Shown here: piece by piece, positions 12,551 to 63,960 of the stretch
Layout: each line of letters opens with the position of its first letter
How positions within the stretch are numbered: the stretch's first letter is position 1
DNA from: Xestospongia bergquistia
Taxonomy: Eukaryota; Porifera; Demospongiae; Haplosclerida; Petrosiidae
Direction: 5' to 3'
Assembly: GCA_963965975.1 (NCBI GenBank)
Contig: OZ014419.1
Span: 248,001-312,000 of the forward strand
Length of the DNA stretch: 64,000 nucleotides
Position numbers and translations under genes: made by a program
Notes under the pieces: generated by a model
Database searches by the model: none
Seen by the model: only the letters and a program-made list of their open reading frames with translations
What the model was told of the DNA's origin: nothing

Positions 12551-17044
<4,494 letters not shown>

Positions 17045-36940: not shown

Positions 36941-36995
<55 letters not shown>

Positions 36996-38067: not shown

Positions 38068-38265
38068 TTACAATTTTGAAGCTTCAAACTCATCAATATT
38101 TTGTGTAGGTGGAGGTATTGGCTGAGGTATTGGCTGGGGTGGTGGTGCCCCTCCCCCTGGTGCATTACCAAATGGATTCTCAGCAAACTGTTCAAACTCT
38201 TCAGCTTCACCACCTTCATCTTTACCATGTTTCTTCCTTTGGAAGAATCCAAACTAGAGAGATTA

Positions 38266-38297
<32 letters not shown>

Positions 38298-39574
38298 CAG
38301 AGGAGAGACAAGAGGAGAGAGAGAAAAAGAGTTTTCTTCTACTCAACAAGAAGACTTACACAATAGAGTGCGATACCCACGATAAGAACGAAGATTGCAG
38401 CAGCAATGATAGGAGCTACAACAACATACCATGGGAATGAGGCACTTCCTCCTTGGGTCTGATACCGGATTAATTCAACATCACTCTAAATAGAGGAAAG
38501 ATCACACACACACTATATAATCTGTCCTTACAGTATCACTGTCAGTAGCGTCTCTAGAATTAGTAATACCATCTGTAATAGTAACCTTGGCGTATGACCT
38601 CAAATTAAAAGTGGTTGTCTTGCCCTATAATAAGAATAATAAATGACCTTTATTGGTTCAGATTTTACACTCTCCCTTACAGCAAAAAATCTCTCATCAA
38701 TATAACCTGTAATACCAATAGTAGCTGTACCAGTAAAATTTGCTATAACGCATTGAACAGAAATACAACCAACAGTGGATTGAGAACAGTCCTGTAAACA
38801 TTTAAAACCAGTACAGAAAACCAGTTAATAAACATACCACATTAAAGGTCTGAGTTTGTCTACGGCTACGTGAGAGACCAAACTCCCAATGACCTGGGGG
38901 GGCTTGCCTTCGACGACGCTTTGCAGAACTCAATGTAAAGTTGTTAGGATTAAGATTAGAACTGTTACATACAATACTGTCTTCTTGCTATATACATATA
39001 TACAAATATAAATAACATATAAAGTGAACTTACTAAACTGGCAGGATAATAGTAATAATAGCTACCAGTCTCAGATGAATATGATGGAATAGAAATGTCC
39101 AAATATCCTGATATGATACGGGATGGACCGTTGTTACGAAAATCAACAGACAATCTCAATTCACTTCCCAAATTACTAGCGATATTGTTAACAGTTGGAG
39201 TTCCATTACCATAATATACTTGCTGGCTTCGCGAGAACAACCTAATAAAAAATTTATATACTAATAATATCTATTGTCTTGAAGATACTTACAAAGTCAC
39301 TACATAATTAGAAGTAGCATATACAGGAATAATAGCTTGCTGTACATTGTTATCATTTGCAACATCCATACCAAAGCCTGTGTTTGGTACTACCATTGAT
39401 ATTTGGACTTTGAAATCATCCTCATCTCCTCGTATACCTTCACTAGGTACCTGCCAATTCAAATGAATCGTATTTACACCATCTGACTGTTTTAATGGAG
39501 ATTTGATGTTAACACAATCATAGTTTCCATGAGTGGTATTGTCTGGAGTAGTATCATTACAAATAATGAATAGC

Positions 39575-39608
<34 letters not shown>

Positions 39609-41800
39609 TAGAACAGAATTATAAATTTTACTTACAGATCGAGGTAAAATTTGTGGTTGTTGGAATATTCTTGGTATTGTAAATGTAAGATAAGTATTAT
39701 GAGCATCATCAGTATTGTTGTTAAAATAGTTCAAATATACTGATATTCTATCAACATCTCCAACTGTCAATCTAGTCTGATCAGAAGCCGGACTACCACT
39801 CAAAGTTCTATTAAAGAGTAATAATATAAATGGGTGGAGTTTAGTATAATTAAATCTCACAAATATGTGATATTGATAAGTGACAAAATAACATCAGCTT
39901 GACATTGATTGTCATCACCACAGTCCCGAGCCACAATAATCTGAGGAAGGAGTTGAACACAATAATACATCATATCATTTCATACTTGAATATCAGTAGG
40001 TGTGGCATCAATTTTTGGCACTTTAGATAAATCAAGAGGAACAGTTTCAATATTAACGGGTGAGTTATCTCGAGGAATATCCTGGAGTTCAGCTCTTAAC
40101 TTAAAATTGGCTACACTGCTAGAATTCTAGAGCAACAAATGATAAGTGTACTTGTACATTATATCAGAATACCTTAATATAAAGTGTTATATTGTTACAC
40201 AAAGCCTGGTTAATGCCAATATAGTTCACATCTTTTGAAATTGTGTTAATTGAAAGAGAAGGGTTAAAAAAGAGTCGACGTGCTGCATTACCAGACAAAA
40301 TTTCACTCAGTCTATATGTAGCGTCTAAGTGAGTGACATTGTTAATGATGTTAATAGTGAGTGAATGGACTTACTAAATCCTGATTCTAAACCTCTGCCT
40401 CGATATTGTGTACACACAGTTACAACAAAACTAATTATAATAATAAAGTTATATAATAATATTATTTAGTTTACCATGTAATGGGGTTATCATTTGGGTC
40501 CCTGCAATTATAATCATCAAGTTTAATTGGATCACTAGGAGCTGTAATAGTGATATCGGCAACAGCTACTGGTATTGAACGAAGAACAAACACAGTCTGA
40601 GACTCATATGCACCAACTACGAGATCTGACCAATCAAAGTAACATTGTGCGAATAGAATATCTCTTTTAAATACCTCTATATGTATTTTGATCAACATCT
40701 GTAGTACCAGAGAGAGAAAATCCAAAACTACTTACAGATGTAACATCAGTGACTTGATCTGCTATTTTAGACCCTTCAATTCGCTATAAACACAACATTA
40801 ACACAATACAATAATTCTTGCTATATTTCTACCTGTTGAAATGTTGTATTAATAATAGAACCCATGTCATCTATTTGTTGACCATGATAGATATAGATGA
40901 CACCACTATCTTCATAAGGTGCGCTAATAGCAACATCTAAGAGAAAGAAATATTAGAGAAAGAGAGAAAGAAATATGAGAGAGAGAGAGAAAGAAATATG
41001 AGAGAGAGAGAAGAGAGAGAAGAGAGAGAGAGACAGAGAGAGAGAGAGACAGAGAGACAGAGAGACAGAGACAGAGACCTTCAAATCCATCATTGTTCAA
41101 GTCACCAAGATTTGCTATAGAGATACCAAAACGACCTCTTCTGACAGTACCAACAATTACAGCACTTTTGCTAAATTCTCCCTTTAAAAATAAAACAATT
41201 CATAGTCAGCAATACACACACAAATCCCACACATATAAAAACACACCTGATTATTATAGTAAACATAGACACGACCCAATTCACTTAAAGTTGGTTCACT
41301 ATATATAGGAGCACCAACAAGGAAATCATCCAACCTACATGTAGAAAAATATATATATGACAGGTGGTAAGAAGAAGAGAACCACAGGAATGTAATATTC
41401 ACAAGAACACCTGCCAGCATGTCTGACCAATTATAAGGAAACTAACCCATCTCCATTGAGGTCAGCCACTCCAATAGAATATCCAAAATACTCTCCATAC
41501 TATAGTTAATAGTCACAGTTAAAGAATCATTTATATTTTTATTAACCTGTTCACCATCAACATATATAGTAGATACATTTTCTAATTTAGATATAATATA
41601 AACCTATTATGGTAAAAGGAGTTACTATATTACATGTACTAATATCATTAACTTACTCGTCCTAGCTGTGTGAATTCAGTATGGCGTGGTGATGAAATTA
41701 TGAAACCTAAGGAGTGTTGAATTAATGATGTTAAAAAATGAAATTTACTTTTTGAAGTTGTTGTATTAAGAAAACGTCCACTTGAGATAGCAAATCCTGT

Positions 41801-41837
<37 letters not shown>

Positions 41838-43879
41838 TATTAAAATAAATATAAAAACAATACATTCTTACCATAGTAAGAAAATTGCTCATAAGGTACA
41901 TTTTCAAAATTGGCTGTGTTATCACCATTACTGTCACCAGTGCTAGCTGGAACAAGAAAAGGTTGTACCATGTTTTGATCAAGTCCATAAGGATTAGTGA
42001 GATTGTTATAATAAAATGCACCACCACTGCTAAAACGACGACCAGGTACACCAGCAGCAAGAAGAGGTAAGCTACCATTCTAAAGAGGAAGACATTAATA
42101 AAGAACATCAAAATTAAAATAATCACCATTGATACATGTACTGAAAAACCAGTCTCACAATATCCTTCACGTTGTTGGCTAGTAGCAGCACCATTATCTG
42201 AAAAGTGATACTATAATTAGACTGATGATGTAATGTTACTATATTTATTAGCTAGATGATGCTATATATGGTATTAAATGTAGGTAGCTTAGTGACATAC
42301 TGCAAGGTTGGATAACAACAAAGTTGGTCAGATTTCTGCTAGCGTAGACACAGCGACCTCGAGGTTGAGAATTACTAAAGTCAGTATTAACAAATTCCCA
42401 CAGTGGAGCACAAGCCTAAATTTAAGAAACAATAGCATTGGAAATTATTCCTCTCTGTCTCTCTCTCTCTGTCTCTGTCTGTCTCTCTCTCTCTCTTACA
42501 ACAAAGAAACCTTCACTACTGAATACAGTTGCTCCCATTTGTTGTCCATCTTTGTTCTGAATTAAAAGGTACTGTTGGACCTCTCTATGATATTCAGGAA
42601 TATTTCCTACAAAGTCACATATTATAACAGTCCACCATGGTCTATCTCTTACCAACACGATCAAAGAGCATTCCATCTGGAGAGTTAGCATCACCATTGC
42701 CTAGTAGAGCTGAACAATTTCCTGCTGCTAAGTAACACTGATAAACCAATCCAGTACGATTAAACTCCAGTGTCATATTGTAAGGAATGCTACTAATTCC
42801 ACCAGGAAACCGACCTCGAGGAGCTCCAGCTATAATGCTAGATGAACACAATAATATTCAATGACTTGATAAAAGGCAATCACACTTAAAGTAGTAATAC
42901 TTTCTATTATTGTTGTTATTTGGTAAAAATGTTTATTGTTTGAGAATAACTTCACATACAAGCATTAAATAATTTACTCTAAGTGATAAACATTATATTA
43001 TTTCCTACACTTGTTAACAGCTGCATTATAATATGAATGTCATATTTAAATTGAAACACCAACTCAACATGTCACATTTCAACTACAAAGGAATGTGAAT
43101 TTATTGTAATAGGTATGTTAATACTATGATATGGTAAACAGATGTTTACTTACAAATTATCACACACATACCAAATACAGACTACTCAGGCATTGCTGAC
43201 CCTTCACTAAGAGAGGAAGAGTGAAGAGACAAGAGTATATAGGACTTGTACAAACCTTGTAGGTCATAGAAACTCCTCATGCACTTATGAGTTCCTTCTT
43301 TTCACTTAGCGGCTATTTATTGTGAATTGATAATGGCTAGTAAAGTCCCAGAAGCTGTTTGAAACTCTGCAGTACAAGTCGCAAGGCAGCGGTAGTTATA
43401 AAGGAGGGTCTACGCTTCCATTTGCTCTTATAACACATGCTCAGGTCTAAGTATACTCTACCCAAATCTGTATTCCTGTTATATGAATCCTATATGTACT
43501 TGTCCCCAGACCCTTCCTCCCATTGTGAAGGGTCAGGAACACCAGACTACATACAAACACACACACACACACACACAGAGGGGGCCACATTCCATTTCTA
43601 CATTTCACACATAATAGGTGTTATTTAGATATATATTATAATTACTTACACTGTCTTGTTAAAAATATCCTCTAATGACATACCACTAGAATCAGTGAAG
43701 AACTGATGAGCAGTGACCGAGTAACCAAAATGATCATCTAATGTGCCATCATTAATCTTAGCAGGCGATATCTTAGCTATAGGTTTGAGAACATCGATAC
43801 TTTCCAAACCTTGACATCGACAGATACAAACTAATGTACTCAGTACTATCCAAGTCGTGAGGAGGCTAAGGCTGTCCAT
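38068..43879 (-). CDS. Integrin alpha subunit, copy 1 (no I domain)
   Basis: Multi-exon minus-strand gene, exon 1 43879-43650 with a signal peptide (MDSLSLLTTWIVLSTLVCICRC) and the first propeller strand (DDHFGYSVTAHQFF). An 812-base intron holding a MITE-like repeat precedes exon 2 (42837-42653). FG-GAP repeats carry three Ca-binding loops: DLNGDGLDD, DLNNDGFED, DVDQNTYRD. No I domain lies between blades 2 and 3. Thigh and calf follow, with basic sites RRRRQ and RSRRQ (near 38890-38925) that furin could cut into heavy and light chains. A TM helix (VVVAPIIAAAIFVLIVGIAL) leads to GFFQRKKHGK; GFFKR is usual. The tail is proline-rich with an NPF motif (AENPFGNAPGGGAP, PIPQPIPPP) and ends EFEASKL. 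It should pair with a beta subunit at the cell surface. Confidence 0.95.
38264..38332. repeat. GA-rich simple repeat in integrin alpha 1 intron
   Basis: Imperfect GA/GAGA sequence in the intron between the TM exon and the cytoplasmic-tail exon of integrin alpha 1; on the gene strand it is a pyrimidine tract. Confidence 0.85.
39573..39604. repeat. (GA)n run in integrin alpha 1 intron
   Basis: Short GA run within a leg-region intron of integrin alpha 1. Confidence 0.85.
40943..41078. repeat. GA-rich repeat in integrin alpha 1 propeller intron
   Basis: Imperfect GAGAGA and GAAAGAAATAT units fill the intron between two FG-GAP exons. The matching intron of integrin alpha 2 (47224-47315) has a related but rearranged array including a GT run. 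Confidence 0.85.
41800..41836. repeat. (GT)n(GA)n microsatellite in integrin alpha 1 intron
   Basis: GT run joined to a short GA run within an early propeller intron. Confidence 0.85.
42450..42496. repeat. CT-rich run in integrin alpha 1 intron
   Basis: CTCTCTGT-type sequence right beside a minus-strand donor (GTAAGAGAGAG on the gene strand), so here the purine strand follows the 5' splice site. Confidence 0.85.
43178..43552. mobile_element. MITE-like inverted-repeat element in integrin alpha 1 intron 1
   Basis: The left end (CTGACCCTTCACTAAGAGAG, 43196-43215) and the reverse complement of the right end (CTGACCCTTCACAATGGGAG, from 43535 downward) match well, and a weaker match extends outward. 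The 375-base span has no coding frame and is less AT-rich than the rest of the intron. This fits a non-autonomous DNA transposon; target-site duplications were not clear. Confidence 0.5.
43556..43578. repeat. (CA)n microsatellite in integrin alpha 1 intron 1
   Basis: CA run just outside the right end of the MITE-like element. Confidence 0.85.
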
Positions 43880-44162: not shown

Positions 44163-45176
44163 TCAAATGGTGCTCTCTTCCGGAGCACTAGGGACTTTCT
44201 CAGTAATAGTTTCTGTATTATCAGATGGGGACACTTTAAAGGTATCAAGAGGCATCTCTTTAGTACTCTGAGGTTCCTCTTTAAAAACCTGAGGTCTTTC
44301 TTTGGTATCATCTTTTGTATCTATATCAACAAGAGCTGGTACATAAGTATCATCATAAGGGTCGGCATTCTCCTCTTCTTCTTTTTTAATCTGCTTTCTT
44401 CGGAAAAATCCAAGCTACACAAATATACAAGATTGCCATGGTAACAGCCAATTAGTGCTGATCATCAAACATACAAAGTAGAGAACAATGGCAATTAGAA
44501 TAATAAAGAAAATGGCCACCAGGACGCACACTACGATGATTATAATATTAAGAATACTCAGAACATCACCAGATCCAGTGTCTGGTGTTTTAGTAAGTGT
44601 TAGAGTCACCTAAAAAAAGAAGTTTATCTTTATGATGACACACTCAAACAGATGGCAACAGATATTGATCAAATAAACTCTAACATTAGCTTTATTGATT
44701 GAACCAGCAGAGTTAGTAAAACCATCAGTAACTTCTGCAGTGACAAATGCTCTAAAGATAAAAGTGTCAATTTTCCCCTAAAAGTTATAATAACAACATT
44801 TGTATATAAAATACAGCTGTACTTACATTGTAGAAACGCTCATCAATATAGCCAGTAACTATATACGATACTGAGTCAATTCCTAAATCTTTAACATCAC
44901 AGGATACCTTAAGGCATTGATCACGATTAGTCAGACAATCCTAACAGAAGATGATCACATTACATACAATATTATAGAGAACATACTAAATTGTATGAAG
45001 TGTCTTGTCGTTTCTTCCGACTTAAAGAGCTTCTTATCAATCTATCACTGAAACTTCTTTTCTTCCTTCTGGCAGTGGAATCCGTTAAGAAATTATCAGG
45101 ATTGAGTGAAGATGTGTTACATCTCAAATTTGATTGGTTAGTAGGAGTTTGAACACTCTATATATATAGATAGATA

Positions 45177-45269
<93 letters not shown>

Positions 45270-47283
45270 TACTTACTAATGATGCTGGATAATAATAATA
45301 GTAAGTTTCTTCCGGGCCACGAGCAGGAATATATAAATCAAGGAGTCCATTAAATTTAGATTTTCCCTTATTTTGAAGAGTGACTTGCATATTAACTCTT
45401 CCACCCAAATTACTGGCTAAGTTGTCAAGATTACGTTCAATGCCAGTATATATGAAAGAACCATTTAAAACATTGGTGTATAAACTAAATTGAAAATAAT
45501 ATAATATTATGTACAAGTACCTGAAATGGAGCAATCTGATTGGTCAGTTAAGACATAGCATGGTACAATATAATATGTACAGAGACTTACACAATTACTT
45601 CAAAATTTGATACAGCAGCAAACACAATGTTAGCTGTAACTTCATTATTTTCTAAGGTAGAACTGTTCTCTTTATTATGTTGTTGTTCAATAATTCTAAA
45701 TGCAATAGGCAGAGCCAAAGTTCCTTCATTGCCAACTAATTTTGCTGTGTTGCCCATCAAACGAAGGGTGATTTGCTTTGGAGCATCCAAATTGGATATC
45801 GTTGACGGGATATTACATGTATAATTTTGATATGTTGTATTATTGACAGTTGTGTAAGTGCAACTGATAACATTCTATTGATAAAGAGAAGTATATCAAT
45901 GATTTACTAAAGAGACACACTAACCAAAGAAATGTCTACCACTTGACGAAATGTCAAATAGTCTGTATTCACAACAAATGTAATATATGATTTGAAGGCA
46001 TCTTCACCAAGATTACTAAGATCAACTCGAATGTCAACTCTAGTAGCATCACCGACTACATAACGATCAGAATATACAGCTGGTGTAGCATCATCTGTCC
46101 TATTAATAAAATGGGTGTTGTGAAAGAGGTGTGGTTTACATGTATACTAACTTGTAGTCAATACTAGTGACAACTAGGGTAAGATCAGCAATACAATTAT
46201 TATCATCACCACATGGTAAGACAATAGAGATATTATAAGGTTTAGAGGGTGTGGCATCAATGATAGGAGAGTCTGACAAATCAAATGGAACAAATTTCGT
46301 ATTGACACTAGAATTATCTCGTGGTATCTGTAATAGTTCCACCATCAAATAAAAATCATTAACATCAAGGACAGTGGTATTCTAAGAGAAAAACAACATA
46401 GTTTGATATATTTTATTATCAAATTTTACTTTGACATAAGCTGTGACATTATTGCATGTTAGCTGATTAGGACCAGGAAATGTGATAGACCTTATAATAG
46501 AATTTGTAGTCAAAGAAGGATCAAAAAACAGACGATTTTGTTGATTAGTTTCTATCACTTCTTCTAGTTTATATGTAGTACCTGAGTAAGTGAGATTATT
46601 AATGATGTTAATAGTGAGTGAGATTATTAATGATGTTAATAGTGAGTGAATGGACTTACTAAATCCTGACTCTAAACCTCTGCCTCGATATTGTGTACAC
46701 ACAGTTACAACAAAACTAATTATAATAATAAAGTTATATAATATTATTATTTAGTTTACCATGTAATGGGGTTATCATTTGGGTCCCTGCAATTATAATC
46801 ATCAAGTCTAATTGGATCACTAGGAGCTGTAATAGTGATATCGGCAACAGCTACTGGTATTGAACGAAGAACAAACACAGTCTGAGACTCATATGCACCA
46901 ACTACGATATCTGACCAATCAAAGTAACATTGTGCGAATAGAATATCTCTTTTAAATACCTCTATATGTATTTTGGTCAACATCTGTAGTACCAGAGAGA
47001 GAAAATCCAAAAGTACTTACAGATGTAAGGTTGGTGACTTGATCTGCTATTTTAGACCCTTCAATTCGCTGTAAACACAACAATGACACATTACAATAAT
47101 TCTTGCTATATTTCTACCTGTTGAAATGTTGTATTAATAATAGAACCCATGTCATCCATTTGTTGACCATGATAGATATAGATGACACCACTATCTTCAT
47201 AAGGTGCGCTAATAGCAACATCTAAGAGAAAGAAATATTAGAGAGAGAGAGAAAGAAATATGAGAGAGAGAGAGAAAGAAATA

Positions 47284-47314
<31 letters not shown>

Positions 47315-49571
47315 CCTTCAAATCCATCATTGTTCAAGTCACCAAGATTAACTACAGATATACCAAAACGACCTCCATTGACATTACCAGTAATTATAGT
47401 ACTCTCATTAAGGTTTCCCTCATCCTACAAAAGGAACATTATTATCATATGTCACCAACAAACCACGCCTACATTAAGAAAGACATAAACTCGTCCAAGT
47501 TCTGGTGTTATTGTATCCCAATAAAATGGTGCACCCACTACAATATCATCCCATCTATAAGTGGGAGGAGCTATAATAATTGACGTTAATTAGTAGAACT
47601 TACCCATCTCCATTCAAGTCAACAGCTGCAACACTGTATCCAAAGTATTCTCCAATCTATAAAATATTAAATGATGGACTACATCATCATCAAGTACCTG
47701 CTTTCCTTCAATAAATAAGTCAGGTTCTTCTGTGACATCAGTAACCACAGCAACCTATAATTAATAAAACTACAATCGGGTCTATAATGAGGAGGTCTTA
47801 CTCGACCAGCTGCACTATTCTGATCAGCATAACGAGGAACAGACACAATGTAATCTGAGAAGGTATGTAAGTTAATATATCAAGTGTTTAATATTATCAT
47901 ACCTTTACTATTGTTATTAGTTATAAATCCACTGGTAATGAAGTATCCTAGAAATTATGACTGATAATATACCATCCTCATTTCATAACCATTCATCCAT
48001 CCATCCATCCATCTTTCATGTACCATAATATTCATCAGGTCCGTCAAATATTGATGATGAATCCTTTTTTACTGGCGCAGCAGAAGAATTACTTCCTTGA
48101 TAATAGTACACTTCACCAAATTTACTTAAACTAGGAACACCAATACCAATGACTGGTTCAAACCCATTCTAAAAATATTTAACTACTAATTACTAATTAA
48201 CAGGGTCTACCTCATTGACCTTAATATGTCCTCCTACACCTCCACTGCAGAATTTTTTAGCAGAATCTGGTATATAATATTAATATTATTATTAGTCTAA
48301 TAAGAAATGTACCACACGGTCTCAAGAGGTTAAAGTTCATAAGAGATCGATTTGAATAGACACATCGTCCCTCAGGATATTTTTCATTCGCATCCTCATT
48401 TGTCCATAATGGAGCACAAGCCTAATAGATATGATAAATTGACTTGTAAAGTATTGTAATATACAGTCAACTAACAATAAAATATTCACCACTACTGTAT
48501 AAAAGAGCACCCATTGCTTGCATATCTTTAATTCCCTGTAAATTACAATGATGATAATTACCTATTAGAAAAGAAAAAAAACAAAAATTAATATTGAATA
48601 AGGTTTTGTTGATATTGGCTATCAAGCAATGTCTTATTAATTTGTCTATTTCTTTTGTCTGTCCAACCTTCATAACTTTGAACTTACCAATTCGATCAAA
48701 AAGGAGTCCATCATTAGATGCAGGATCACGATTGCCTAGTAGACCATCACATTCATTGATACCAATGGAGCATTGATAAACGAGCCCAGTTGTGATATTT
48801 TCAAGGCATATATCAATCTCTTCCGGTGTAAAATTCATTAAGATTGTCTCATTAAGAGTACATGTACTATTTTGACATGCTCTCCAATCTGGTTCTAGGT
48901 CTGTACCACCTGGGAATTTTCCATGAGGAGCACCAACAATTACCCTATCAAATGAACATACTTATTACATATTTGAGTAATTTACAGTTGTACATTTACT
49001 TGGCTAACCCACAACTATTCATATACACAAGTGGGCTGGTGAGGTAATTGTCCTTACTCTAACAAAGATGTTTACAATAATAATGATATATTGTTTACTT
49101 AAATATCGGTAAACGGCTTACTATTAAATGATTTATAAAAAGCTAAAAAAACTGTTATTAATGATATGATTATGTATGTATAGATAATATATATGTATTA
49201 TGTAATAATAAAAACATAATATCATAATAAATACAATTACCTAATATTAGCTTTTACTACAAAGAGTAGTGCCCTTGTTAAAATAATAGTGGCATGATGT
49301 AGCATGTCTTAATAGTTATTTATTATTTTGTAATTACTTACACTGTCTTGTTAAAAATGTCCTCTAATGACAAACCACTAGAATTAGTGAAGAACTGGTG
49401 AGCAGTAACCGAGTAACCAAAATGATCATCTAATATGTCGTCATTAATCTTGGCAGGCGATATCTTAGCTATAGGTTTGAGAACATCGATACTTTCCAAT
49501 CCTTGACAATTAGATATTAACACACAACAGAGACACAGTAATAACTGCAGCGCTCGAATAGACGCCATCAC
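44163..49571 (-). CDS. Integrin alpha subunit, copy 2 (no I domain)
   Basis: Minus-strand gene starting MMASIRALQLLLCLCCVLIS (signal peptide) at 49571 and ending ESTI-stop at 44163. The first exon after the signal peptide is nearly the same as that of copy 1 (GLESIDVLKPIAKISPAKIN). The propeller has DLNGDGWDD, DLNNDGFED and DVDQNTYRD Ca loops and no I domain. The last two FG-GAP repeats match copy 1 almost base for base, introns included. The calf region has basic sites RRKKRS and SRKKRQ near 45000-45090. TM: IIIIVVCVLVAIFFIILIAI, then GFFRRKQIKKEEEE with a long acidic tail holding DPYDDTYVP. A (GA)n intron run of about 85 bases lies at 45182-45267. Middle blades differ clearly from copy 1, so ligand choice may differ. 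Confidence 0.95.
45179..45267. repeat. (GA)44 microsatellite in integrin alpha 2 intron
   Basis: About 88 bases of pure GA in a short intron of the calf region; on the gene strand it is a CT tract before the acceptor TATATATAG. Confidence 0.95.
46591..46646. repeat. 28-bp tandem duplication in integrin alpha 2 intron
   Basis: Two perfect copies of TGAGATTATTAATGATGTTA plus AATAGTGAG. Integrin alpha 1 has a single copy at the matching place (near 40333-40360). Confidence 0.85.
47224..47315. repeat. GA/GT simple repeat in integrin alpha 2 propeller intron
   Basis: GAGAGAAAGAAATAT units with an internal GT run, matching the intron at 40943-41078 in integrin alpha 1. Confidence 0.85.
47995..48014. 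repeat. (ATCC)n microsatellite in integrin alpha 2 intron
   Basis: Five CATC/ATCC tetranucleotides within a short intron. Confidence 0.8.
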
Positions 49572-49898: not shown

Positions 49899-52800
49899 TT
49901 ATGTTTCCACAGGAGCTTCTCCTCCTTGTTGCTCTTCCAAAAATTGAGCAGTTAGTTCATCCTTCTTTTGCTTGTGCTTACGTTTGAAGAAACCGACCTA
50001 TATAAGTATTACCAATAAATAGGTGTGGCCACACATGGTGCCTCCACCACTACTTACAAAGTAAAGGATAACACCTAACACAGTAAAAAATATAAGTGCT
50101 AAAACAATTGGGACAATAATCATCCATGCTTCAACATCAACTTTAGTATCTCCATCTCTAGTCCGTGGAGCTGATGTTATAGCTCTGACTTGTGCCTGTT
50201 CATTGAAAAATAAAAATAACTAAAATAAAGTCTGTGTGACATACACTTGTTTCATCAGAGAGATGGTTAGTTGGTTGGGTAATAAAAGAAGAGTTGACAA
50301 TGGTCACATTAGCATATGTTATAAAGGTGAACCTATCCACACGTGACTAAAATAATATATAAAGGGATTAAGTCTATAATAAAAACCACTTTACTTCGAA
50401 ATATCTCTCATCAAGATGGGAAACAATGCCTATTTGAGCACTACCACCTTGTGGCAACTGAAGAATGTTGCATACAATTTGAACACACTGTGTTTGATCC
50501 GACCTACAATCCTGTTAATAACATGAACATTATCATGTGATTCTGAAAAAAATTCTAACTTACAATTGTTATATCTTGAACATTAGTACCTCCTCCTCCT
50601 CCAGAACTGGATTGTCTTTTTTGTAGTTTAAGTCCCTCATCTGTTGTATCCAAACTAAAGAAAATAGATATATTATGAATGAAATAATTAATAAATAAAA
50701 CATTCATACTTTCTTCTTTTTCTTTTTCCTTGTCCTCCCGTCAATTGTTCATCTCCATTATTAATTGGAGATTGATCTAGACCAAGTGGATTAATATACA
50801 TATTAGCACATGTGACAGCTGAAGTGGATGATACCTATTAACAACAAGGGATAACAATAATAATAATAAAGATGAAGGAGGAACGCACCGTTATGCGAAA
50901 TGGATATAGGTAATATAAGTCTGATGAATCAGATGGTCGTAGAGGCCAAAGAATAAGCAAACGAGTGTTAGGAACAGTAGTAGGTCCATCATTACGTACC
51001 TAGAGTGAGTGAAAGAGAGAGAGAGAGAAAGAGAGAGAATGCACATGTATGTGTGTGTGTTAATAACTCTTACCACAAACGATACATTAACTTGAGGTCC
51101 TAACTGTGTTACATAAGTCAAGTTAGCAATGTTAGTTGTATTATCATATGATACTTGCTCAGGAGATGTAATACTATAAAAAATATTTCAATATACTAGG
51201 TATTAAGAAATAAACTTACGCTTGATCTAAATACACATCAGCTTGAGCTCTAACAGTAAGAGATTCAGTGTAAGTGTTATCAGAGAGTGTGGTTGGTAGT
51301 TCATCATTGATACTAGTGGCATTGAATTGGAATTGAAAATTGCCTTCAGAGCCATTAATGGAAGTAGTCGGTTGCACTCGAACAGCAATTACCCTCTAGA
51401 AATGTGTTGATCAAGAAGAGTAGATGGAATATATGAACTAACCTGGTTACCACTAGAGAGTGGATTAGCTATTGGACAGGTAAACCTAGTTGTACCAGTT
51501 CCAACAGGTTCAGAATTACAGGATAACAATAACTAAAAACAATAAAGAGATATAATTAAACTGCATAATTGTATTGGTATACAAATACAAACTTACATTA
51601 CGAGGCTCGATACGAACGAAACTAAAATGTACGGTATCCAATAAAAACACAAGTTGAGTTAAAAAGGAATCATCCCCTGCATTAGTCAATCTCATCCATA
51701 TATTGATAGCGGACACAAGACCAGCTGTTAATGTGTTGGTTGTAACACCAGTTGTAGTTCTAAATTACATAATAACATTAACAACGGACTATATTAGTAG
51801 GGACTTACTCATAAGTAACATTGATACGCTCCAAACGCAAGTTAGGAATACAAACTGAACCTTGACAGTCTTTTAATGTTTCCACTTGAATTTCAGTGGT
51901 GCCAGTTGTTGTCACAACAGGAAAATTTAAAAAGTTGCTAGGGTCTGGATTGCCATCTTTATTACTGCTTGTAAATTCTGGACCAGTGACTGAGATCTCA
52001 ATGGGAAAACCACGGAATATATCGACAATACCTCTCTAACAGGTGATATAAATATTTCAATTACTTAAAAGGTTAAATACAAACCTTCACAAAAACTGTC
52101 TCAGTGATGCATTGTTCTTGTCCTTGACTAAATGTACTGACAACCATTTGTTGAGGTTGTTGTTCTGAATTATCGAAAAATACTCTTGAATCCAGGCCCC
52201 GCTCAATATTCTGACGTTCAGCAAATAAAGTAATAGTTAACTCTACACAATCAATAATCATTAATAATCATTAACAAGACAATTTACCTATAGTATCACT
52301 TAATTGATTGTTACTAGGATATGATGCACACACTGTAACATTGAAACTAAATGAAAGAGTATATATTTTAGATCTGTATATAACAGCTGCTCTATGTTCT
52401 TACCAGGGATACATCATGCTATTGTGCGAAAATCTACATGTTGTGTTGCTGTCTGCTTGTACATCAACTACTAAGGGAGCAGCAGTTAGAGTTATAGCAA
52501 CAGGAGCAACTACTCGGGTTCTAAAAATAACAATATTATTTTATTTTATTTTTCTATTTATAAGAACAATTATATGTAAACGCATTATAAATAAATTTTA
52601 TACGAGTACATGAAAGTAGTTACCTCAAAAGAAATACTTGTTGTGATCTGTAAGCTCCAATGACAAGATCTATAGAAGTAATGGCTTTAATATCAAGTCA
52701 ATCTAAATGTATTGACTTACCATTAACACCATTACCATCTACATCAATAGAACTAGCTAATGAAGAACCAAAACTGATAGGTGTGTCTACAGTAAGATTA

Positions 52801-54690
52801 CGAGTGACATCTGAGCCATTAATGATCTATGAGATATCATAAGGAAGTCACATGACTGTCACATGATCACCAATGCATTACTTGTTGTGGGTTTGAAGAA
52901 ATAAAATCAGATCTTGAACCATAATAAATAAAGACTTTTCCAGAACCCTTTCCAAATGGAGCACTAATAGCAACATCTGTGAAAATATGGGTCTGAAGAT
53001 GTCAATGCAAAATGGTTTCCTGTACCTTCTAGGCCATCTCCATTAATATCACCAAGATTAACAATTGCATGACCAAAACGTACATATTCCTCTGACTCTC
53101 CAGAAAGAGTTTTAAACCTTTGGAGACTCCCCTAAAATTAGCGGTAATTACACAGTCAGTCATGGTTCTAGAAGACTTACCCCTAAATTTCTATACACAT
53201 AAACTTGTCCAACTTCTGGTACTCCTCTTACACTGTACATTGGAGCACCCACTAAGAGCTCGTCATATCCATCACCATTTAAATCAACTGTAGCCAAAGA
53301 GAAACCATAATATTCACCAACCTAAACAAAATCGCAAGTATTTTTATAGTTCACTCTACATACCAAACAGTCATACCTGAACACCTTGCAGTTGAACATT
53401 GATAATATCTAAGTTACGATCATTAGATACAATGTTCACCTAAGAGAAAGAACAATTGAAATTACTTGATTGAAAACAGCCTGTACTCACAGCACCAATA
53501 TAATTCCCCCGTCTTGGCACAGATACAACAAAATCTTCTCTGTTTTTATCAACTATATGACCTTTAGTCAGAGAGTAACCTTGCCAATCATTGCTACCCG
53601 TTCCTTCATTTTGACTCATACGATCCACAATACCACTTGAAGAACGACGAAAGAGTACTCCTAATTATAAGAGTATTAGGTTATTATAAAATAATTCATA
53701 ACTTACCTGACCAACTGTAAGAACCAGGCGCACCAACAGCAAAAGCTATATTTCCACCACTGGTTTCTTCCTGTGTAAACAAAATTATCATTAATTTCAT
53801 TTAGTATATATTTTAGTCTAAATAAAACTGAACTTACAGCCAAAGCTACACTGGTCCCAGCTTGACAGTAGCCAAATTGACCTGTACCAGTACTTAAGCC
53901 TGCATAGTAATATTTCACATAATATTGTCAGATACCAATAACTGACCATTACAAGGATCAAATTGCATGAATCCTTGAAGATCTCTGTTTGCTGTGTAAT
54001 AACACTTCCCTCGTACAAGACGAGATGTGCCAGATGAGCCTCTAAAAATATGGCGATGAGCACAAACCTATATTATATACATAGTCAAATAAAATTATAT
54101 ATATACATGTTTTAAATGTCTGACAATAAATTGGTTGTCCTTGCTGTCCATGGCCACACCAAGAAACTGGCCCATTTTCAATTCATCATTACCATTAGCT
54201 ACATAAGAGAACAGACTTAATGGTAGATACGTTCAATAGTTGTAAGTTATAAAATATTATTAATAGCATATACTGACCATCTCTGTCATAGAGTTTCCTG
54301 TCAAGACCATTATTAGTACCATTAAGAGGTACACAATCTCCTTGAGTTATTGGACACAGATACAGAAGTCCAGTATTGTCGACTGCTGTTCCACCAGGTG
54401 CAGTACCATTAGGCGCACTAACTATAATCCTAAAAGTATGCAAATCACATACTATATATTGCGATTTCTTGCGAGATTTACCTTGTCCCCTGCAAGTGCG
54501 AGCTGAAGCTTGACGGCGTCGGGACCTGTGTTCTATGCAACAATACGGTGTAACCAAAGTAAGAATCGTTGTCCAAACCATTAGGTGCCAGACGGACGAT
54601 CGGCTCTGTTGTATCGATTGAGCTTTGAGCTCTTAGCCAGTTGAAACACACTGCAAAGAGGAGCAGTATTATTTTCAAAGTTGACTGCAT
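49899..54690 (-). CDS. Integrin alpha subunit, copy 3 (no I domain)
   Basis: Minus-strand gene from MQSTLKIILLLFAVCFNWLR (signal peptide) at 54690 to PVET-stop at 49899. It is the most divergent of the three alphas. The propeller begins DNDSYFGYTVLLHR; Ca loops read DLNGDGYDE, DINGDGLED and DVDGNGVND, all with good consensus. There is no I domain. Thigh and calf follow; the calf has GKRKRRS and LQKRQSS basic sites (near 50610-50740) beside a glycine run. TM: AWMIIVPIVLALIFFTVLGV, then canonical GFFKRKHKQKKDE and a short tail. Its start faces the first integrin beta gene across 350 bases, so the two are natural candidates for co-expression and pairing (inference). Exons in the leg region are short with introns of 40-100 bases. 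Confidence 0.95.
51016..51060. repeat. GA and GT runs in integrin alpha 3 intron
   Basis: Imperfect GA run followed by a short GT run in a leg-region intron. Confidence 0.8.
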
Positions 54691-55040: not shown

Positions 55041-58000
55041 ATGAAGTCGAGAAGTCTTATCATTATTTTCATGCTGTCTCTTTATCTGACAGAAATCGGT
55101 AAGCTACAGGACACCAAACATTTCAATATATAGTCAATGATTATCGTGGGAATGCTACTAACGTTTTGTCTATAAAATGTTTTATTCATATTCTTCACAA
55201 AATAGTTATTGGTCAAGATTGTTCTACTGCTAACACATGTGGTGAGTGTTATGCCATCCCTGCTTGTGTGTGGTGTTCGTCACCTGGCTTTATTGTAAGT
55301 ATCTCAACTATTTAGATTATAATTATAATAATAATTATTAACCTTATTATTATTAAGACAATGTCTAGAGTGTTGCTAATAGAATGCTGTACTTTAATGG
55401 GCATTTAATACTATCCGTAGACCCCAAATCTTAAACATCAAAACCTAAATGTATGAATTTTACATTAATTAATATACAGCATTCTGTTAGCACTCTAGAT
55501 AATATCAAAGTCTAAGAAAGATGCTATTAAAGGAAATCTGATCATTCACCTCCATATTAATCTAAATAAATATTTGTGGTTAAACTAACACAGGTGTCTG
55601 ACATTCCAAGCATGTCAAGCCAGATATATAGTCTGAGTTGATTTTTGTTATTCCATCTTTTTTTAAGGGGGTTCGATGCTTTGCTGCTTCCTCATCTGTG
55701 ACTTGTTCAATGAAAGAAAACACCCCAAACAATGTTACTATTGATGAAGTAATTGGTAACAGTTATGATATTAAGAGTTTAATAGTACACTGGTAGTGTT
55801 TGCTACAAGGATTTACAATTTACCAAATAAGGAATTAGCAATACTTACCAGCCAATCATATCCTGACTCTTTCCTTTCTTCTCAGCTTGAACTTAACTCC
55901 GATAACCAGATATCTTTAAAGAAATCTACAGTTCGTCTAAGAGTTGGTGAGATAAATGTCTCTCTCTCTCTCTTTTTATATCTCATTTATATTCTGCTTT
56001 ATTGTAGGACAAACTCAGAGCTTTAATGTATCCATTAGGGCAGCTGAAAATTTCCCTCTAGATTTGTATATGTTGGTAGATTTATCAGGTTCTCTACGTG
56101 ATGATCTTGAAACAATTAAATTAATAGCTAGTGATATTGGTAAACAGTCATTGTTAATCTTTAATTCATTCTATTATATTATTAGCTGAAACAATACGTA
56201 ATATATCAACACGTTTTCAAGTTGGCTTTGGTACTTTTGTTGATAAAGTTACTTTGCCTTATATCTCTCGGGTGCAGATAACGTATGAATATGATATTAC
56301 AAGTCATATGATATTGTGTTCTCTTTTAGGGGTATGTCACTTACTGGGAACGCTACTTTACCATTTAGTTATGTTCATAATGTGAATCTGACCAATAATT
56401 CTGCTGTGTTTGATGTGAGAATATACATATAATAAATTCTATTATAAAAATAATAAATTTCTTGTTAGAGAGGGTTCCAGGATTTGATCATATCTACAAA
56501 TGTAGATGATCCTGAAGGGACTTTTGATGCCATGTTACAAGCTGTTCTTTGTCCAGAGGTGAGCTTTACACTACAGCATTCATCTCTCTATTTGTATCCC
56601 CAGGTTGTTGGCTGGCGTACCAATGCTAGAAAGATATTGATGGTCCTTACTGATGATGTCCTTCACTCAGCAGGAGATGGAAGGGTAAATCATGTGATAG
56701 TCACGTGACTGTCACAATATTTACTTTCATATTAGATGGCAGGTATTGTGAAACCAGCATCAGAAGAGTGCCAGATGATGTTTGATCCAGAAATAGGATT
56801 AATGTCTTTTGTTAATAATCTTCAATACGTATGTACTCATAATTAATAACAATAATTATAAATTTATTGTTTTTTACAAAGGATTATCCATCAGTTGAGC
56901 AGATACGTGAAGTTTTTCAAAAGAACATTGTTGTACCAGTATTTGCAGCAACTAGTGAATTCCAGTCATTGTTTGAACAAGTAGCAGCAGCTATGGAAGG
57001 ATCTGGTGCTGTTACTGCTATCATCTCTCAAAATTCTTCCAATATAATTGATGTTATTCAAACAGCTTACCTGGTTGGTAACAATGACAACATTTGGTAT
57101 CTAATAAAATTGTGTTGTAGAATATTATATCAAATGTGGCCTTGAGTTTTGTACCTCCTAAAAATTTTACAATCACATATAGAGTAGAATGTCCTGAGTA
57201 AGTTTAACAATTGAAAACTATCACTACTGTTATATTTCCTTTTAGAGGTTCTACATTAAATAGCAATGGTCTCTCGTGTAGTAATGTCACAGTTAATCAA
57301 ACTACTACATTCACTATTGATGTGAAACTAGAACGATGTAGTAAAACATTTCAAAATGAGTAAACAGGACATTATCATTTTGTTAATTATAATTATGTTT
57401 TGTAGAAATATCGTTGTTACTGTACCTGCTTATGGTAACTTTGAGATTGAGTTAGTAGGTATATGTCAGTGTGACTGTGAAGAGGATGCTGTGAGTAGTA
57501 CTTGTTAATCATGTATTGTATTGTATAAACTATCTAGATACCTAATAGCGAAGATTGTAGTTTTAATGGTTCCTTGTCGTGTGGAGTATGTGAATGCAAT
57601 CCTGGCTGGTGAGTAAAACCCGCTTGTAGTGAATAATAATTATTAACAATAATTACCTAATTTAGGACAGGTGATATCTGTAATTGTTTTGAACTAGATG
57701 GAAGTACAGATTGTCCGTATGTTCTATGATATAAAGATTGTTTAAGTTAACACATTACATTAGTACATTTGCTAATCAAGAATGCAGTAACCGTGGTGTT
57801 TGTCAATGTGGTGTATGCTCATGTGGGAGAGCAGATAGTGTTGAAGAATTGTCATCACCTACTCGTTATCGAGTTACTGACAGACAACTTCCAAGACCAG
57901 TTATATTGGTGAGTTCTATAATTATCTTTATTATTTAAAACGACCTACCCTTTCCAGTATGAACGTCCTAAGATAAATGAAAGTGCGTGTGAATGTGATA

Positions 58001-58765
58001 ATTTTCGTTGTTCGTTCAATGATGATACTTCTGAAGTATGCAGTGGTCCAAATAATGGTAAATATAGCTTTCTGTCCTGTACACATTTTATATCTCCTAG
58101 GTCAATGTACTTGTACCAATGGAATACTATCTTGTGTCTGTAAATTGAACACTTACAATAACAAACCGTATACTGGTGAAGCTTGTGAATGTACTGAAGC
58201 TAATTGCTATGATCAAAGACTTGATTTTGATCCATCTGTACAGGTAAATAATTGATTGCTAGCTAGCTAGGTCATACGTCTCTTTTTGTATCTATCTTTT
58301 AGCCATGCAATGGTAATGGTCAATGTAACCCTTGTAATAACAACAACCCGTGTACTTGTAGACCTGGTTTTAGTACCAGGTTTTGTATAGCAATTAATAC
58401 ATCTTTTAGTCAATGTGAAAGTGTTGAGAGAACATGCGTACAATGTATTGCTGACAACGTGAACCATGGAGATGTATGTCAATGTCGTAATACCTCTACT
58501 CGTGAATATGTACGCCTCTCTGAACCACAACGGAATGATAGTTATGAGATTCCTAGTAAGGCAACACCCAAGCTAATTACTATTTATTGTCCTTAATAGA
58601 CTCTCAAGGTGATACAGAGAGCTGTAGTTTTCAAATAGCTGATCCTATATGTACTTACAAATATTATATTGCCACTTCTAGTGAATCCATAGGTAATAAT
58701 CAGAAACAACTTGTTTATATTGAGCCTTCAGGTATGTTTATCTTTCTTAGTATGACTTGAAAATA

Positions 58766-58798
<33 letters not shown>

Positions 58799-59140
58799 CT
58801 GTATATTTAAGACTGTTTTCCACTACGTTGGTGGCATTTGGCTTTGATTCTATTGGCTGTTTTCATAATTTTTGGAATTCTTATTCTTATAATTGTCAAA
58901 CTCATTTTTATGTGCCTGGTGAGTTACTTGATATACATATGTCATAATGATGTCATTGTTGTTTAGGACTATGCAGAATTGAAGAAATTCCAAAAGGAAG
59001 TTGCAGAGGCAGATTTGTCAAAGGTATATGAAAAATTATTTTCCATTTTAGTTAGTTAAAAAAATATTTTCTAGAATTTTAATCCTCTCTATCAAAGTCC
59101 AGAAGTTAAATATGACAATATAGCATTTGGTAAAGAATGA
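55041..59140 (+). CDS. Integrin beta subunit, copy 1
   Basis: Plus-strand gene from MKSRSLIIIFMLSLYLTEIG (signal peptide) at 55041 to GKE-stop at 59140. A PSI domain is cysteine-rich (CSTANTCGECYAIPACVWCS). The I-like domain has the MIDAS/ADMIDAS sequence DLSGSLRDD (DLSGS at 56079-56093), DDPEGTFDAML and VLTDDVLHSAGDGR. The specificity loop lacks the cysteine pair found in most betas. I-EGF modules follow (CGVCECNPGWTGDIC, CSNRGVCQCGVCSCG, CNGNGQCNPC). After the TM helix (LALILLAVFIIFGILILIIV) comes DYAELKKFQKE with the Asp/Glu used in the alpha-beta clasp. The tail has one clear NPLY (59081-59092); the distal motif reads KYDNIAF, without NPxY. A 35-bp tandem duplication overlaps the stop codon. 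Confidence 0.95.
58768..58798. repeat. (CT)n run in integrin beta 1 intron
   Basis: CT run on the gene strand shortly before the acceptor of the TM exon of integrin beta 1. Confidence 0.85.
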
Positions 59141-59674: not shown

Positions 59675-62600
59675 ATGACAAGAAAACAATATTGGATTAC
59701 TCTTTTAATCCTAGCTGGAACCAGTTTGGGTAAGAATAGAGAGAGAGAGAGAGAGATGATTCATTATAATATATATTTGTTGTAGTTTACAGCCAACAGA
59801 ACACAGATTTGATATGCAATGCTCAGACTACATGTAGAAACTGTATACAAGCTTCTCCTTTATGCAGCTGGTGTGCAGAGCCAGTAAGTAAATCCATGAA
59901 CATAACACCATCACTGCATCAAAAAATACAATGAGATTGTATTATATAATTAGGGATATGACTGCAAATTTTTTTTTAGAATTTTCGTGGACCACGATGT
60001 TATTCAACAAGTAGCAACAGCAATTGTAGTAACAATAATATACAAGATCCTCGTGGTTCAGTCCAGGGAGCTACCAATGTAAGTGTCTCATTAACAACAG
60101 AATGCAGAATGATATTAATAGTGTTTTTAAAACAGCATTCTTTTAATCTCATAGTACAAATTACTGACAGTCACATGTATTTTGTTAACAAGACATACTA
60201 ACACTTGCCTTTCCTGTAGGACCCATTTACAGACTTAAATCAAATCTCACCTCTTAATGTCAACATTTCACTAAGACGAGGTAATTAACTTAAATAAACA
60301 AGTATAGACAGATTAGACAATGAACATGAATTATCAATACTATGAATAATGTTAAATGTTATGACATACATTCATCCTCCAAATACAATTTACCTTAAGA
60401 AACTAGCACATCACATTCCAATCTTTCACTTGTGCAGGTCAACCACTTACTTTTCAAGTAAAAGTGACACCAGCAAGAAATTATCCTTTAGATCTTTATC
60501 TTCTTATGGATCTCTCGTACTCTATGAGAGATGATTTGGCAAATCTCAAAACACTTGGAGGTCAAATAGGTAAGGACTTGACACTTCCAACGACAATCTT
60601 AACAATCTTGTATCTTTAGCAACTACTATCGCTGGAATTACAACCAACTATAACTTAGGATTTGGTGCATTTGTTGACAAACCTATAGCTCCCTATGTCT
60701 CCATTATCCCTTCAAGGTTAGCACGACATATTCTCTAACGATATGACCTTTACTCTCTAAATAATAGGTTGGCTGATCCTTGTTTAGGTGGTTGTGAAGG
60801 ACCATATAGTTTTCGTCATATTATATCTTTAGGAAATGATAGCAATGTCTTTGATGTAAGTCTATAAACTGTGCATTCTCTTTGAATAATTTACAAAGTT
60901 TATTTGTTACTTTGTCATGACATCTTTTCCTAAACACTCTTGTTTCTCAACCAACTATGTTGTCTAACATCAAACCACATATACATAATATATACCCACA
61001 CATTCAGACCTGTCACATTCAACCCACATGCACAAGCTTGCTCCCATAACACACCCAATTAGCATCCGTGGTCTTTTGCATGATTTTTCTTATCACTTTA
61101 GAATGGTGTCCAAGCTCGTGAAATTAGTGGTAATCTAGATGCACCTGAAGGAGGATTTGATGGATTTCTACAATCAATTGTTTGTCAAGATGTAAGTTGA
61201 TAGATACAAAGGATGACATAATATATTTAATTAACTTTACAAGGCCAGTACAATTAGTATCAATGTTGTAAATGGCCACAAAGTTATTTGTTTGGTGTAG
61301 GAGAGGCAGCCTTACTTGGTAGTCTTGGTCAGATTTGTGGTCACAAAAATATTGTAATCACACCTTACATGTTAATTATGTCATGGTGTGGTATGTGTAT
61401 AATCAAGTGTAAGAAGTGACTTCTGGATTTATGACTTGGGGGCATACAACATACAAGTAGTGTGTGTGTGTTCCAGAGTGTTTTTTTCTCAAGCCAGATC
61501 ATTTCCTACTTGTTTATTTAATAATATTGACTCTTTGAAGGGTTCTATTTTGTTTATTATATCTTAATTATATAGTTAATTGGTTGGCGGAAAAATGCTC
61601 GTCATCTGCTATTGTATATTACTGATGCTGGCTTTCATTTTGCAGGAGATGGAAAGGTTTGTTCATTTTTACAACATTCAGTCACAACATACACCACTAA
61701 GATGAACTGCATGTCAAACAACAAAACCGTTCACATCTAAATAGTGTGTTATTTATGTTTTTATCACCTAGCTTGGAGGAGCTGTCATTCCACACACTGG
61801 AGAATGTTTAATGGGACAACAAGTAAACAATGAACCTGTTGACTACACTCAGTATGATAGACTAGTAAGTTCAGGTAGTCTGGTAAATTGTAGTTACTGC
61901 TGGCACTATTTTTTAATAGGATTATCCATCTGTTGGACAAATTAGAGAAAAATTGAGAGAATTTGATATTATTCCTTTGTTTGCTGTGACTGATGGTGCT
62001 AGAACATTTTATAATGTAAGCTTAACATGGTGGAGTATTGTGACATACTTCCTCTCTCTTCTTGGCAGGCTCTTGCAGCTGAGTTAGAAGGAGCTGATGT
62101 AGAAGAGTTAGAATCTGATTCAGGTAATGTTGTACAGCTCATTGAAGAAAGCTATCGGGTAAATAAGTAGTACTCATCTCACATCTCCATTAATTTATTT
62201 ATTCTACAGAGAGTATCACAACGTGTTATTATATCTCCTGATAATGCTCCTGGCATTGCTTTTAATATCACCCCTGTAACGTGCCCACAGTGAGTTCTTT
62301 TGATAATATTGCCATAGGAACAATGGAAATCACATCTCTTCTAATAGACCTGAAGGCAGTATTTGCAATGGTCTTGAAATTAATCGGACAGCTGTCTTTG
62401 ACATCACTGCTACTCTCCTTCAATGTAGTTCTGAGTTTACGAGTGGAACAAGACGGTAAATTGATGTTGAATTCATTATTGATAGTAATTGCATCTCTCT
62501 TAATTCGTTCAGTATAAATTTCCGAATTCTTGGTTTTGGATCTTTTGAGGTTCAAGTCAACGCAATATGTGGGTGTGAATGTGAAGATAATGCAGTACAA

Positions 62601-63960
62601 AACAGTCCAGATTGTACAAATGGGAATGGTACATTTACTTGTGGTATATGCGAATGCAATAGAGGAAGGTAAGATCAATTGTATTGAGTGATCATTGTAA
62701 TACTGGTTTTTATCAGGTTTGGTGAACAATGTCAATGTGATGGTACAGGTCAAATAGCAGGTACAAACAACACGTGTGGGTAAGTATATTGTTAGTTTTA
62801 GTTGTAACACTTTGTTATCTTAATTGTTTTATAATAGACAAGGATCTAATGGTTTGGAGTGTTCTGGACAAGGGACTTGTATTTGTGGACGATGTAACTG
62901 TAACACATTATCCGTGAGTAGTAAACATTCAGCTAACAAATAGTCATCATTTTTTATAGGAAGGAAGACGATACTTTGGAGTCACTTGTGAATGTAATAA
63001 CTTTGATTGTGACAAAGATTCTGCTGGACGTACCTGTGGAGGTAAATAACACAAGAGGCTACATATTATATGTTAATGATCTTGTTATCATAGAACCTGA
63101 CAGAGGGAGGTGTTCCTGCAATGGGCAGTGTGAATGTCTTACATCGCCCCTTTCAGGATTACTTTACTCTGGACCAGCTTGTGAATGTAGTCCCGATAAC
63201 AACACTTGTATCAACCCAAATATGCCTGACAGAGTATGTAGTGGTCGTGGGGCTTGTAACTGTGGTGAATGTGTTAACTGTAGCACGTATTTTATAGGCC
63301 AGTTTTGTGAAACATGTACTAATATTTCAGTAAGTTCATTTACTCCAGTTTTATTACCATATCATCTTTGCATTACAAAGGCTTGTCCTGTTGCCTCGTG
63401 TTCTACAAATTTGCTCTGTGCACGATGTGCTGCTGGTCTACTAACAGATGGCTGTGATCAGTGTACTAATACTACTCGTGTTAATAATCCTGGACAAGGC
63501 TATAGAATTAATGGCAAGTTATAATGTTATGATGTATTACAAAGAGCTCTGCCTCTAATAGGTAGTCAAGCTGTCACCTGTGATTTCACTGATGACGATG
63601 GCTGTGAATATCGTTACTTTGTTGCCCTTGATGACGATGGTAATAGTCGACCTGTTCACCTCGACACCAACGTTGGTATGTTAAGAGAAGACAAATTATA
63701 ACAGTATTAATTTTAACTCTTTCTTTCTCTTCTTAGACTGTCCAAGTCGAGTTGCTCCTTGGGTTATTGCTGTAAGTATCATTGGAGGACTCCTGTTAAT
63801 AGGAGCATTGATTCTTCTTGCAATCAAATTACTTCTTATGTTATTGGTAAAATAATTTTAAAATCAGTTATACTGATAAATAGAACTATTCTTTTCTTTA
63901 AAGGATTACATTGAAGTTAAAAAGTTCATGAAAGAAATACAAGATCCTGCTTTTAGGAAG
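59675..63960 (+). CDS. Integrin beta subunit, copy 2 (3' end beyond window)
   Basis: Plus-strand gene from [18 protein letters not shown] (signal peptide) at 59675. PSI domain: [21 protein letters not shown]-like domain: DLSYSMRDD (DLSYS at 60509-60523), the usual MIDAS wording; [15 protein letters not shown]; specificity loop with its cysteine pair ([14 protein letters not shown]); [33 protein letters not shown]. Then hybrid and I-EGF modules ([44 protein letters not shown]), beta tail, TM ([20 protein letters not shown]) and [19 protein letters not shown]. The last visible exon stops at a GTAACT donor after 63960, so the NPxY exon lies outside. It is closer to vertebrate betas than copy 1 in its I-like domain. 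Introns at 60857-61102 and 61194-61576 are longer than usual. Confidence 0.95.

Follow-up and report, generated by a model that had tools for sequence, protein, structure and literature searches.

Alpha and beta integrin genes lie head to head as four pairs in Capsaspora owczarzaki and as one pair in Corallochytrium limacisporum, an arrangement of likely holozoan origin, and the linked Capsaspora pairs are co-expressed (PMC5560861). In the sponge Ephydatia muelleri, large integrin clusters are reported on two scaffolds, and the number given for integrin beta is 36, which by its wording may refer to genes or to clusters (PMC7385117). Counts of InterPro domains give 5 alpha and 18 beta integrins in Terpios and 10 and 14 in Amphimedon (PMC12465263), and five and three integrins are reported in Oopsacas (PMC10280926). 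Here we describe three integrin alpha genes (alpha1, alpha2 and alpha3) and two integrin beta genes (beta1 and beta2) located in a stretch of 64,000 nucleotides, referred to below as the window (C9:248001-312000, where C9 is a 7.5-Mb contig in an assembly of 146.46 Mb in 21 contigs). The cluster consists of genuine alpha and beta integrin genes, tandem alphas and tandem betas placed head to head, and we conclude with moderate confidence that it represents, in an animal, the head-to-head integrin pair of holozoans, enlarged through tandem duplication.

Five integrin genes meeting across 350 bp

Genes were modelled with a gene finder whose training set combined long open frames from this genome with the finder's own window models, after which exon borders were corrected by hand; the borders of the first exons and of one beta2 exon were placed manually, using splice sites and reading frames. 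All five integrin models are complete, the terminal stop being the sole stop in each frame, and the median introns of the five genes measure 49-57 bp. The last exon of beta2 is at C9:312013-312075, i.e. 13-75 bases beyond the window end. A sequence-only reading of the window had proposed three alpha genes lacking an I domain on the minus strand and two beta genes on the plus strand, meeting across 350 bp, and the spliced models, the Pfam matches and the gap between start codons all agree with this description.

Each alpha has the make-up of an I-domain-less integrin alpha, with propeller repeats, Ig-like legs, a transmembrane segment and a GFFxR tail. Pfam (E<=0.001; the beta2 model used there predates its last correction) places FG-GAP repeats and Integrin_A_Ig_1, 2 and 3 in all three, the Ig_1 match of alpha1 being, at 24.0 bits, below the 26-bit cut-off, and detects a VWA/I domain in none of the three. 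The D-x-D loops and GFFxR tails were found by motif scan in all three and the transmembrane segments were read by eye. Both window betas contain the Integrin_beta VWA (betaI) domain, I-EGF_1 and the cytoplasmic domain (a PSI domain is listed for beta2 only), and both display the DxSxS motif of the metal-ion-dependent adhesion site (MIDAS), EGF repeats, a transmembrane segment and a cytoplasmic NPxY/F motif. PDB searches, carried out with alpha1, alpha3 and beta2, returned as best matches integrin alpha-4 (5.5e-54), integrin alpha-V (3.6e-71) and integrin beta-1 (3.7e-130), respectively. Chance is excluded as a source of the integrin genes themselves.

The three alphas are judged to be tandem copies of one gene because their intron positions are shared far above random placement. 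Counting an intron as shared when it has the same phase and lies within three alignment columns, alpha1 and alpha2 share 24, alpha1 and alpha3 21, and alpha2 and alpha3 22 of their 25-27 introns (16-22 if the column must match exactly); for alpha1 and alpha3, random placement gave a mean of 1.3 and a maximum of 6. At the protein level, identity between alpha1 and alpha2 is 50.5% across 1070 aligned residues; for alpha3 it is 32.3% with alpha1 and 30.5% with alpha2. What looks like gene conversion between the tandem alpha1 and alpha2 is seen in two tracts, the longer of which is nearly 90% identical with its introns included (Table 1). Protein identity between the two genes reaches 92-100% in exons 13-16 and is 15-81% in the other 23 exons; the N-terminal propeller exons 5-9, which we take to include the ligand-facing blades, are only 16-47% identical. 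A 5' fragment of alpha2 is also found at C9:398-399 kb (within C9:396001-399500), 95.5% identical over 1452 bp with a further piece of 173 bp; an insertion of roughly 0.6 kb interrupts it, and one frame of this insertion resembles the C-terminus of a hAT transposase.

The two betas have 18 of 22 introns in common (14 exact; random mean 1.25). Two intron-bearing betas found elsewhere in the genome, beta3 and beta4, share 14-17 introns with beta1 and beta2, and the four genes share 14-18 pairwise. Since beta1 and beta2 are no more identical (37.8%) than beta2 and beta3 (38.0%), and since introns are shared among all four, the window betas appear to be old neighbours or the products of an old duplication; a recent tandem duplication was considered and dropped on the same comparison of identities.

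Simple repeats occur in and around the cluster, where minus-strand open reading frames at 36911-37177, 40927-41199 and 45161-45337 translate as SLSLS or HTHTH.

Integrin genes beyond the window

The genome was searched for further integrin genes with methods that see exons only and score the best candidates only, so that divergent genes may be missed and all locus counts are lower bounds. A six-frame search with PF08441 gave no match, but no control rang there either, so this is no evidence of absence; with PF01839 a single exon matched, which is likewise no evidence of absence. Nothing is concluded from the PF01413 search, in which neither a match nor a control was obtained. The loci detected are listed in Table 1. 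Three of the five intron-bearing integrin loci, the window counted as one, are on C9. The beta3 and beta4 models are automatic, and the N-terminal part of beta3 looks wrong by eye. The sequence-only reading had counted six possible alpha-beta pairs from the locus, a number that misses most of the repertoire: at least two more alpha loci, two intron-bearing betas and 22 single-exon betas have to be added.

Table 1. Integrin loci and neighbouring genes (positions without a contig name are window positions)
Feature	Position	Strand	Remarks
Integrin alpha1	38068-43879	-	27 exons, 1144 aa, GFFQR tail motif
Integrin alpha2	44163-49568	-	26 exons, 1148 aa, GFFRR tail motif
Integrin alpha3	49899-54690	-	28 exons, 1093 aa, GFFKR tail motif
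Segment between alpha3 and beta1 start codons	54691-55040	.	350 bp; presumed shared (bidirectional) promoter region
Integrin beta1	55041-59140	+	24 exons, 819 aa, MIDAS DLSGSLRDD, NPLY tail
Integrin beta2	59675-64075	+	23 exons, 802 aa, NPVY tail
Conversion-like tract, alpha1 copy	40328-41166	-	839 bp; blastn, 89.8% identical, introns included
Conversion-like tract, alpha2 copy	46613-47403	-	copy of the 839-bp tract; blastn
Second tract, alpha1 exon 1 and start of intron 1	43620-43816	-	197 bp; 91.9% identical to alpha2 49315-49508
Integrin beta3	C9:34.0-37.5 kb		intron-bearing; same contig as the cluster
Integrin beta4	C5:8.816-8.820 Mb		intron-bearing
Integrin alpha4	C1:15.142-15.151 Mb		alpha1-like, exon matches 47-74% identical
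Integrin alpha5	C9:731.9 kb		only 3.5 kb read; same contig as the cluster
Single-exon beta array	C4:225-243 kb		5 loci
Single-exon beta array	C4:868-876 kb		3 loci
Single-exon beta array	C4:894-918 kb		6 loci
Single-exon beta array	C1:27.86-27.92 Mb		6 loci
Single-exon beta array	C6:6.877-6.883 Mb		2 loci
FMNL-type formin	31710-37824	-	automatic model; PDB best match Formin-like protein 1, 1.9e-63
Dynamitin (DCTN2)	10209-12407	-	PF04912, 3.1e-59
Kinesin-1 heavy chain (KIF5)	12551-17033	+	PDB kinesin heavy chain, 1.7e-159
RPA3	20657-21148	+	PF08661, 3e-18
MIOS	21635-26101	-	PF21720, 6.5e-24
p23-like gene	9247-10033		PDB best match PTGES3, 7e-10; Pfam CS domain just below cut-off

The single-exon betas form a family of at least 22 loci, as counted by a betaI search of the genome. 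An open frame of at least 795 aa is present in 16 of the 22, the other six being shorter or interrupted. Frames of this length in one exon, set against the 21-23 introns of beta1-beta4, have lost the parental introns, as expected of a retroposed family. We aligned 16 frames (15 of those of at least 795 aa and one of 762 aa) and built a tree with beta1-beta4 and the PDB integrin beta-1 chain as outgroup. The single-exon betas group with the window gene beta1, their closest intron-bearing relative, with a support of 100/99 for the joint branch; the branch leading to beta1 is itself long, and long-branch warnings were issued on this tree for beta1, beta3, beta4 and the beta-1 outgroup, among others. 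Compared with beta1 they show a mean nonsynonymous divergence (dN) of 0.62, and a synonymous divergence (dS) that was computable in 15 of 16 comparisons and was at least 1.55 in all of these, values that mark the copies as old. Within three of the groups dN/dS is 0.36-0.57, which indicates overall constraint, and a ratio above 1 for the family as a whole was accordingly dropped. An NPxY-like motif is absent from the last 48 residues in three of the 16 (two copies of the C4:868-876 kb array and the 762-aa copy), so not all single-exon betas keep the usual tail.

The variation in this family is concentrated in loops of the betaI domain, whose names (MIDAS, the site adjacent to it (ADMIDAS) and specificity-determining) and presumed ligand-binding roles we take from integrin structures. 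Nine of the 45 most variable sites, out of 772 in total, fall among the 25 sites of the MIDAS/ADMIDAS and specificity-determining loops; the hypergeometric p of 3.5e-6 is only descriptive, because we set the loop limits, guided by the beta-1 alignment, once the variable sites had been seen. The loops have a mean entropy of 1.26 bits, the rest of the domain 0.56 and the remaining sites 0.92, and the most variable site overall, at 3.0 bits, is the first aspartate of the ADMIDAS pair. The pooled ratio of nonsynonymous to synonymous differences (pN/pS) is 1.00 in the loops (0.86 in six independent pairs; 0.78-1.37 by group) versus 0.35 in the rest of the domain, pN and pS both being raised in the loops. 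One loop segment is common to two sister copies and a copy from another clade (C4c_899468, C4c_903936 and C4b_874310). With loop pS raised as well and a pooled pN/pS no higher than 1.00, the pattern may reflect relaxed constraint or loop exchange among the copies just as well as positive selection.

On these sequence features the single-exon betas are perhaps a recognition repertoire on the beta side. A fuller account, which we regard as unlikely in its entirety, would have the cluster descend from a pre-animal pair and a beta1-like gene become retroposed and multiply to some twenty single-exon betas that fall into five groups, their loops diversifying and being shuffled under a framework that remains constrained; together with few alphas they would make up a repertoire for recognizing self and non-self, microbes or matrix. 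Vertebrates have 18 alpha and 8 beta integrins. The beta1-related family suggests that, in one animal at least, the integrin repertoire has expanded among the betas, opposite to the vertebrate pattern, with variation focused on the presumed ligand-contact loops.

The genome also yields Wnt matches at three loci and, among the matches listed, 12 for TGF-beta, so the host is an animal; from its compactness and gene set it is probably a demosponge. Four of the TGF-beta matches, at C8:312.8-344.3 kb, follow one another at intervals of about 10.4 kb; three of them score identically, and the set looks like a recent tandem array.

Origin of the layout

The start codons of alpha3 (54690) and beta1 (55041) belong to adjacent, divergent genes separated by 350 bp, which is the layout of the holozoan pairs, and the existence of such pairs in Capsaspora and Corallochytrium favours an ancestral linkage. 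The alpha3/beta1 junction would then retain the head-to-head pair also carried by unicellular holozoans, duplication would have enlarged the alpha side to three genes and the beta side to two, and gene conversion would have acted between alpha1 and alpha2. The 350-bp segment would most likely act as one promoter region for the two subunits of an obligate heterodimer, a shared promoter being proposed because the linked Capsaspora pairs are co-expressed. We infer descent from a holozoan pair, shared regulation and the choice of alpha-beta partners alike.

The neighbouring genes in the window also bear on the age of the linkage. DCTN2 and KIF5 stand head to head with a gap of 143 bp. In humans, ITGA5, ITGA7 and FMNL3 lie on 12q13, ITGA2B and ITGB3 are both on 17q21 with FMNL1 nearby, and ARPC2 is on 2q35. 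A gene list for human 12q13.3-q14.1 has DCTN2 and KIF5 adjoining, with PTGES3 at 12q13.3 (PMC3990535), and ITGB7 is at 12q13.13 (PMC2235844). Of the six ITGB genes listed for humans, five map to the HOX-bearing chromosomes 2, 7, 12 and 17 (besides ITGB7, these are ITGB3 at 17q21.32, ITGB4 at 17q25, ITGB6 at 2q24.2 and ITGB8 at 7p15.3), and ITGB5 maps to 3q21.2 (PMC2235844); PMC2566581, looked up for integrin-HOX linkage, does not mention integrins. Some of the window neighbours therefore seem to fit an old block shared with the human integrin-bearing 12q13 region. The sequence-only reading had left the linkage as either ancestral or lineage-specific, and both parts find support: the former in the holozoan layout and the 12q13 neighbours, the latter in lineage changes of copy number (the alpha1/alpha2 tracts and the alpha4 copy). 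Its premise that integrin genes are scattered in well-studied animals is fair at the kilobase scale, but most of the listed human ITGB genes are on HOX-bearing chromosomes. The DCTN2-KIF5 pair, a dynactin subunit and a kinesin, may itself be an animal-wide microsynteny. RPA3 and MIOS also adjoin in the window, as they do on human 7p21.

Several observations weigh against an inherited and regulated pair. Among the 18 neighbour pairs in our models of the window (short models overlapping other genes being left out), six are divergent, with gaps of 94, 125, 143, 193, 350 and 638 bp, all below 640 bp. The 350-bp gap is ordinary in this company and the short head-to-head spacing, taken alone, may be due to chance, short divergent gaps being the norm in the window; the gap alone as proof of co-regulation was dropped for this reason. 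Only for three of the 14 non-integrin neighbours (DCTN2, KIF5 and the p23-like gene) do the papers cited here give a human 12q13 position. Human positions that do not fit an old block are those of the PRPS genes, on X, and of the F-BAR relatives, on chromosomes 1, 9 and 19. Of the genes of Amphimedon, 45% may be arranged head to head, and 11,379 head-to-head genes have start sites within 1 kb (PMC4773876), ancestral holozoan linkages have been disrupted and rewired in animals (PMC5560861), and it has been argued that HOX-linked regions possibly do not derive from an ancient block duplication (PMC2235844). Such figures suit the main rival explanation, in which an alpha array and a beta array met by rearrangement in one lineage with a gene-dense genome and their geometry is incidental; the location of the intron-bearing beta4 and alpha4 elsewhere, on C5 and C1, agrees with it too. 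We nevertheless find this secondary adjacency rather doubtful, as two lineages of unicellular holozoans likewise have these two families arranged head to head (PMC5560861), two further integrin loci, beta3 and alpha5, share the contig, and the window neighbours match a human integrin-bearing region. An artificial join of two unrelated loci during assembly is very improbable: the window contains not a single N and is inside its 7.5-Mb contig, and complete genes flank the 350-bp junction on both sides.

A second rival accepts an ancient linkage but has it kept passively, through low rearrangement and gene density, without regulatory meaning and with partners chosen independently of linkage. It is compatible with descent from the holozoan pair and competes only with the regulatory part of the explanation we prefer; we consider it a real possibility, though short of even. 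Pairing need not follow linkage, because an Ephydatia precipitate obtained with anti-ITGB1 held two alphas and three betas (ITGA1, ITGA3 and ITGB1, 2 and 4), and the antibody recognizes three betas; the authors consider that ITGA1 probably pairs with several betas, and their transcriptome search gave seven betas and six alphas (PMC6820919). None of the alpha matches obtained lies close to any of the 22 single-exon beta loci; the closest one on the same contig as such a locus is alpha4, separated from the C1 array by about 12.7 Mb. Against passive retention stands the co-expression of the linked Capsaspora pairs (PMC5560861). If the layout does come from a holozoan pair, the linkage of obligate partners would predate animals and have persisted in a lineage that allows its role in tissue adhesion to be tested, and it would offer an origin for the integrin linkage on the vertebrate HOX-bearing chromosomes.

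Comparison with described systems

Among the matches listed in the open literature, titles and the beginnings of abstracts contain no description of animal integrin alpha and beta genes clustered head to head, nor of a retroposed integrin beta repertoire. The Capsaspora and Corallochytrium pairs resemble the window cluster in that alpha and beta genes are adjacent and divergent; they are separate pairs, whereas here, in an animal, a single junction unites three tandem alphas and two tandem betas. In E. muelleri, integrin genes are likewise clustered and multiplied in a sponge, but the duplicates are described as having identical intron-exon structures, and not as single-exon copies (PMC7385117), and the words 'intronless' and 'single exon' are absent from the main text of that paper. 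The human ITGB genes share with the window the presence of counterparts of its neighbours (DCTN2-KIF5A and PTGES3) on HOX-bearing chromosomes, yet their linkage is on the megabase scale and not between head-to-head neighbours, with ITGB5 outside it at 3q21.2. Finally, the collagen IV genes also place the partner chains of one complex head to head, in an arrangement conserved across animal phyla, although they belong to another family and both partners come from that one family (PMC5395295).

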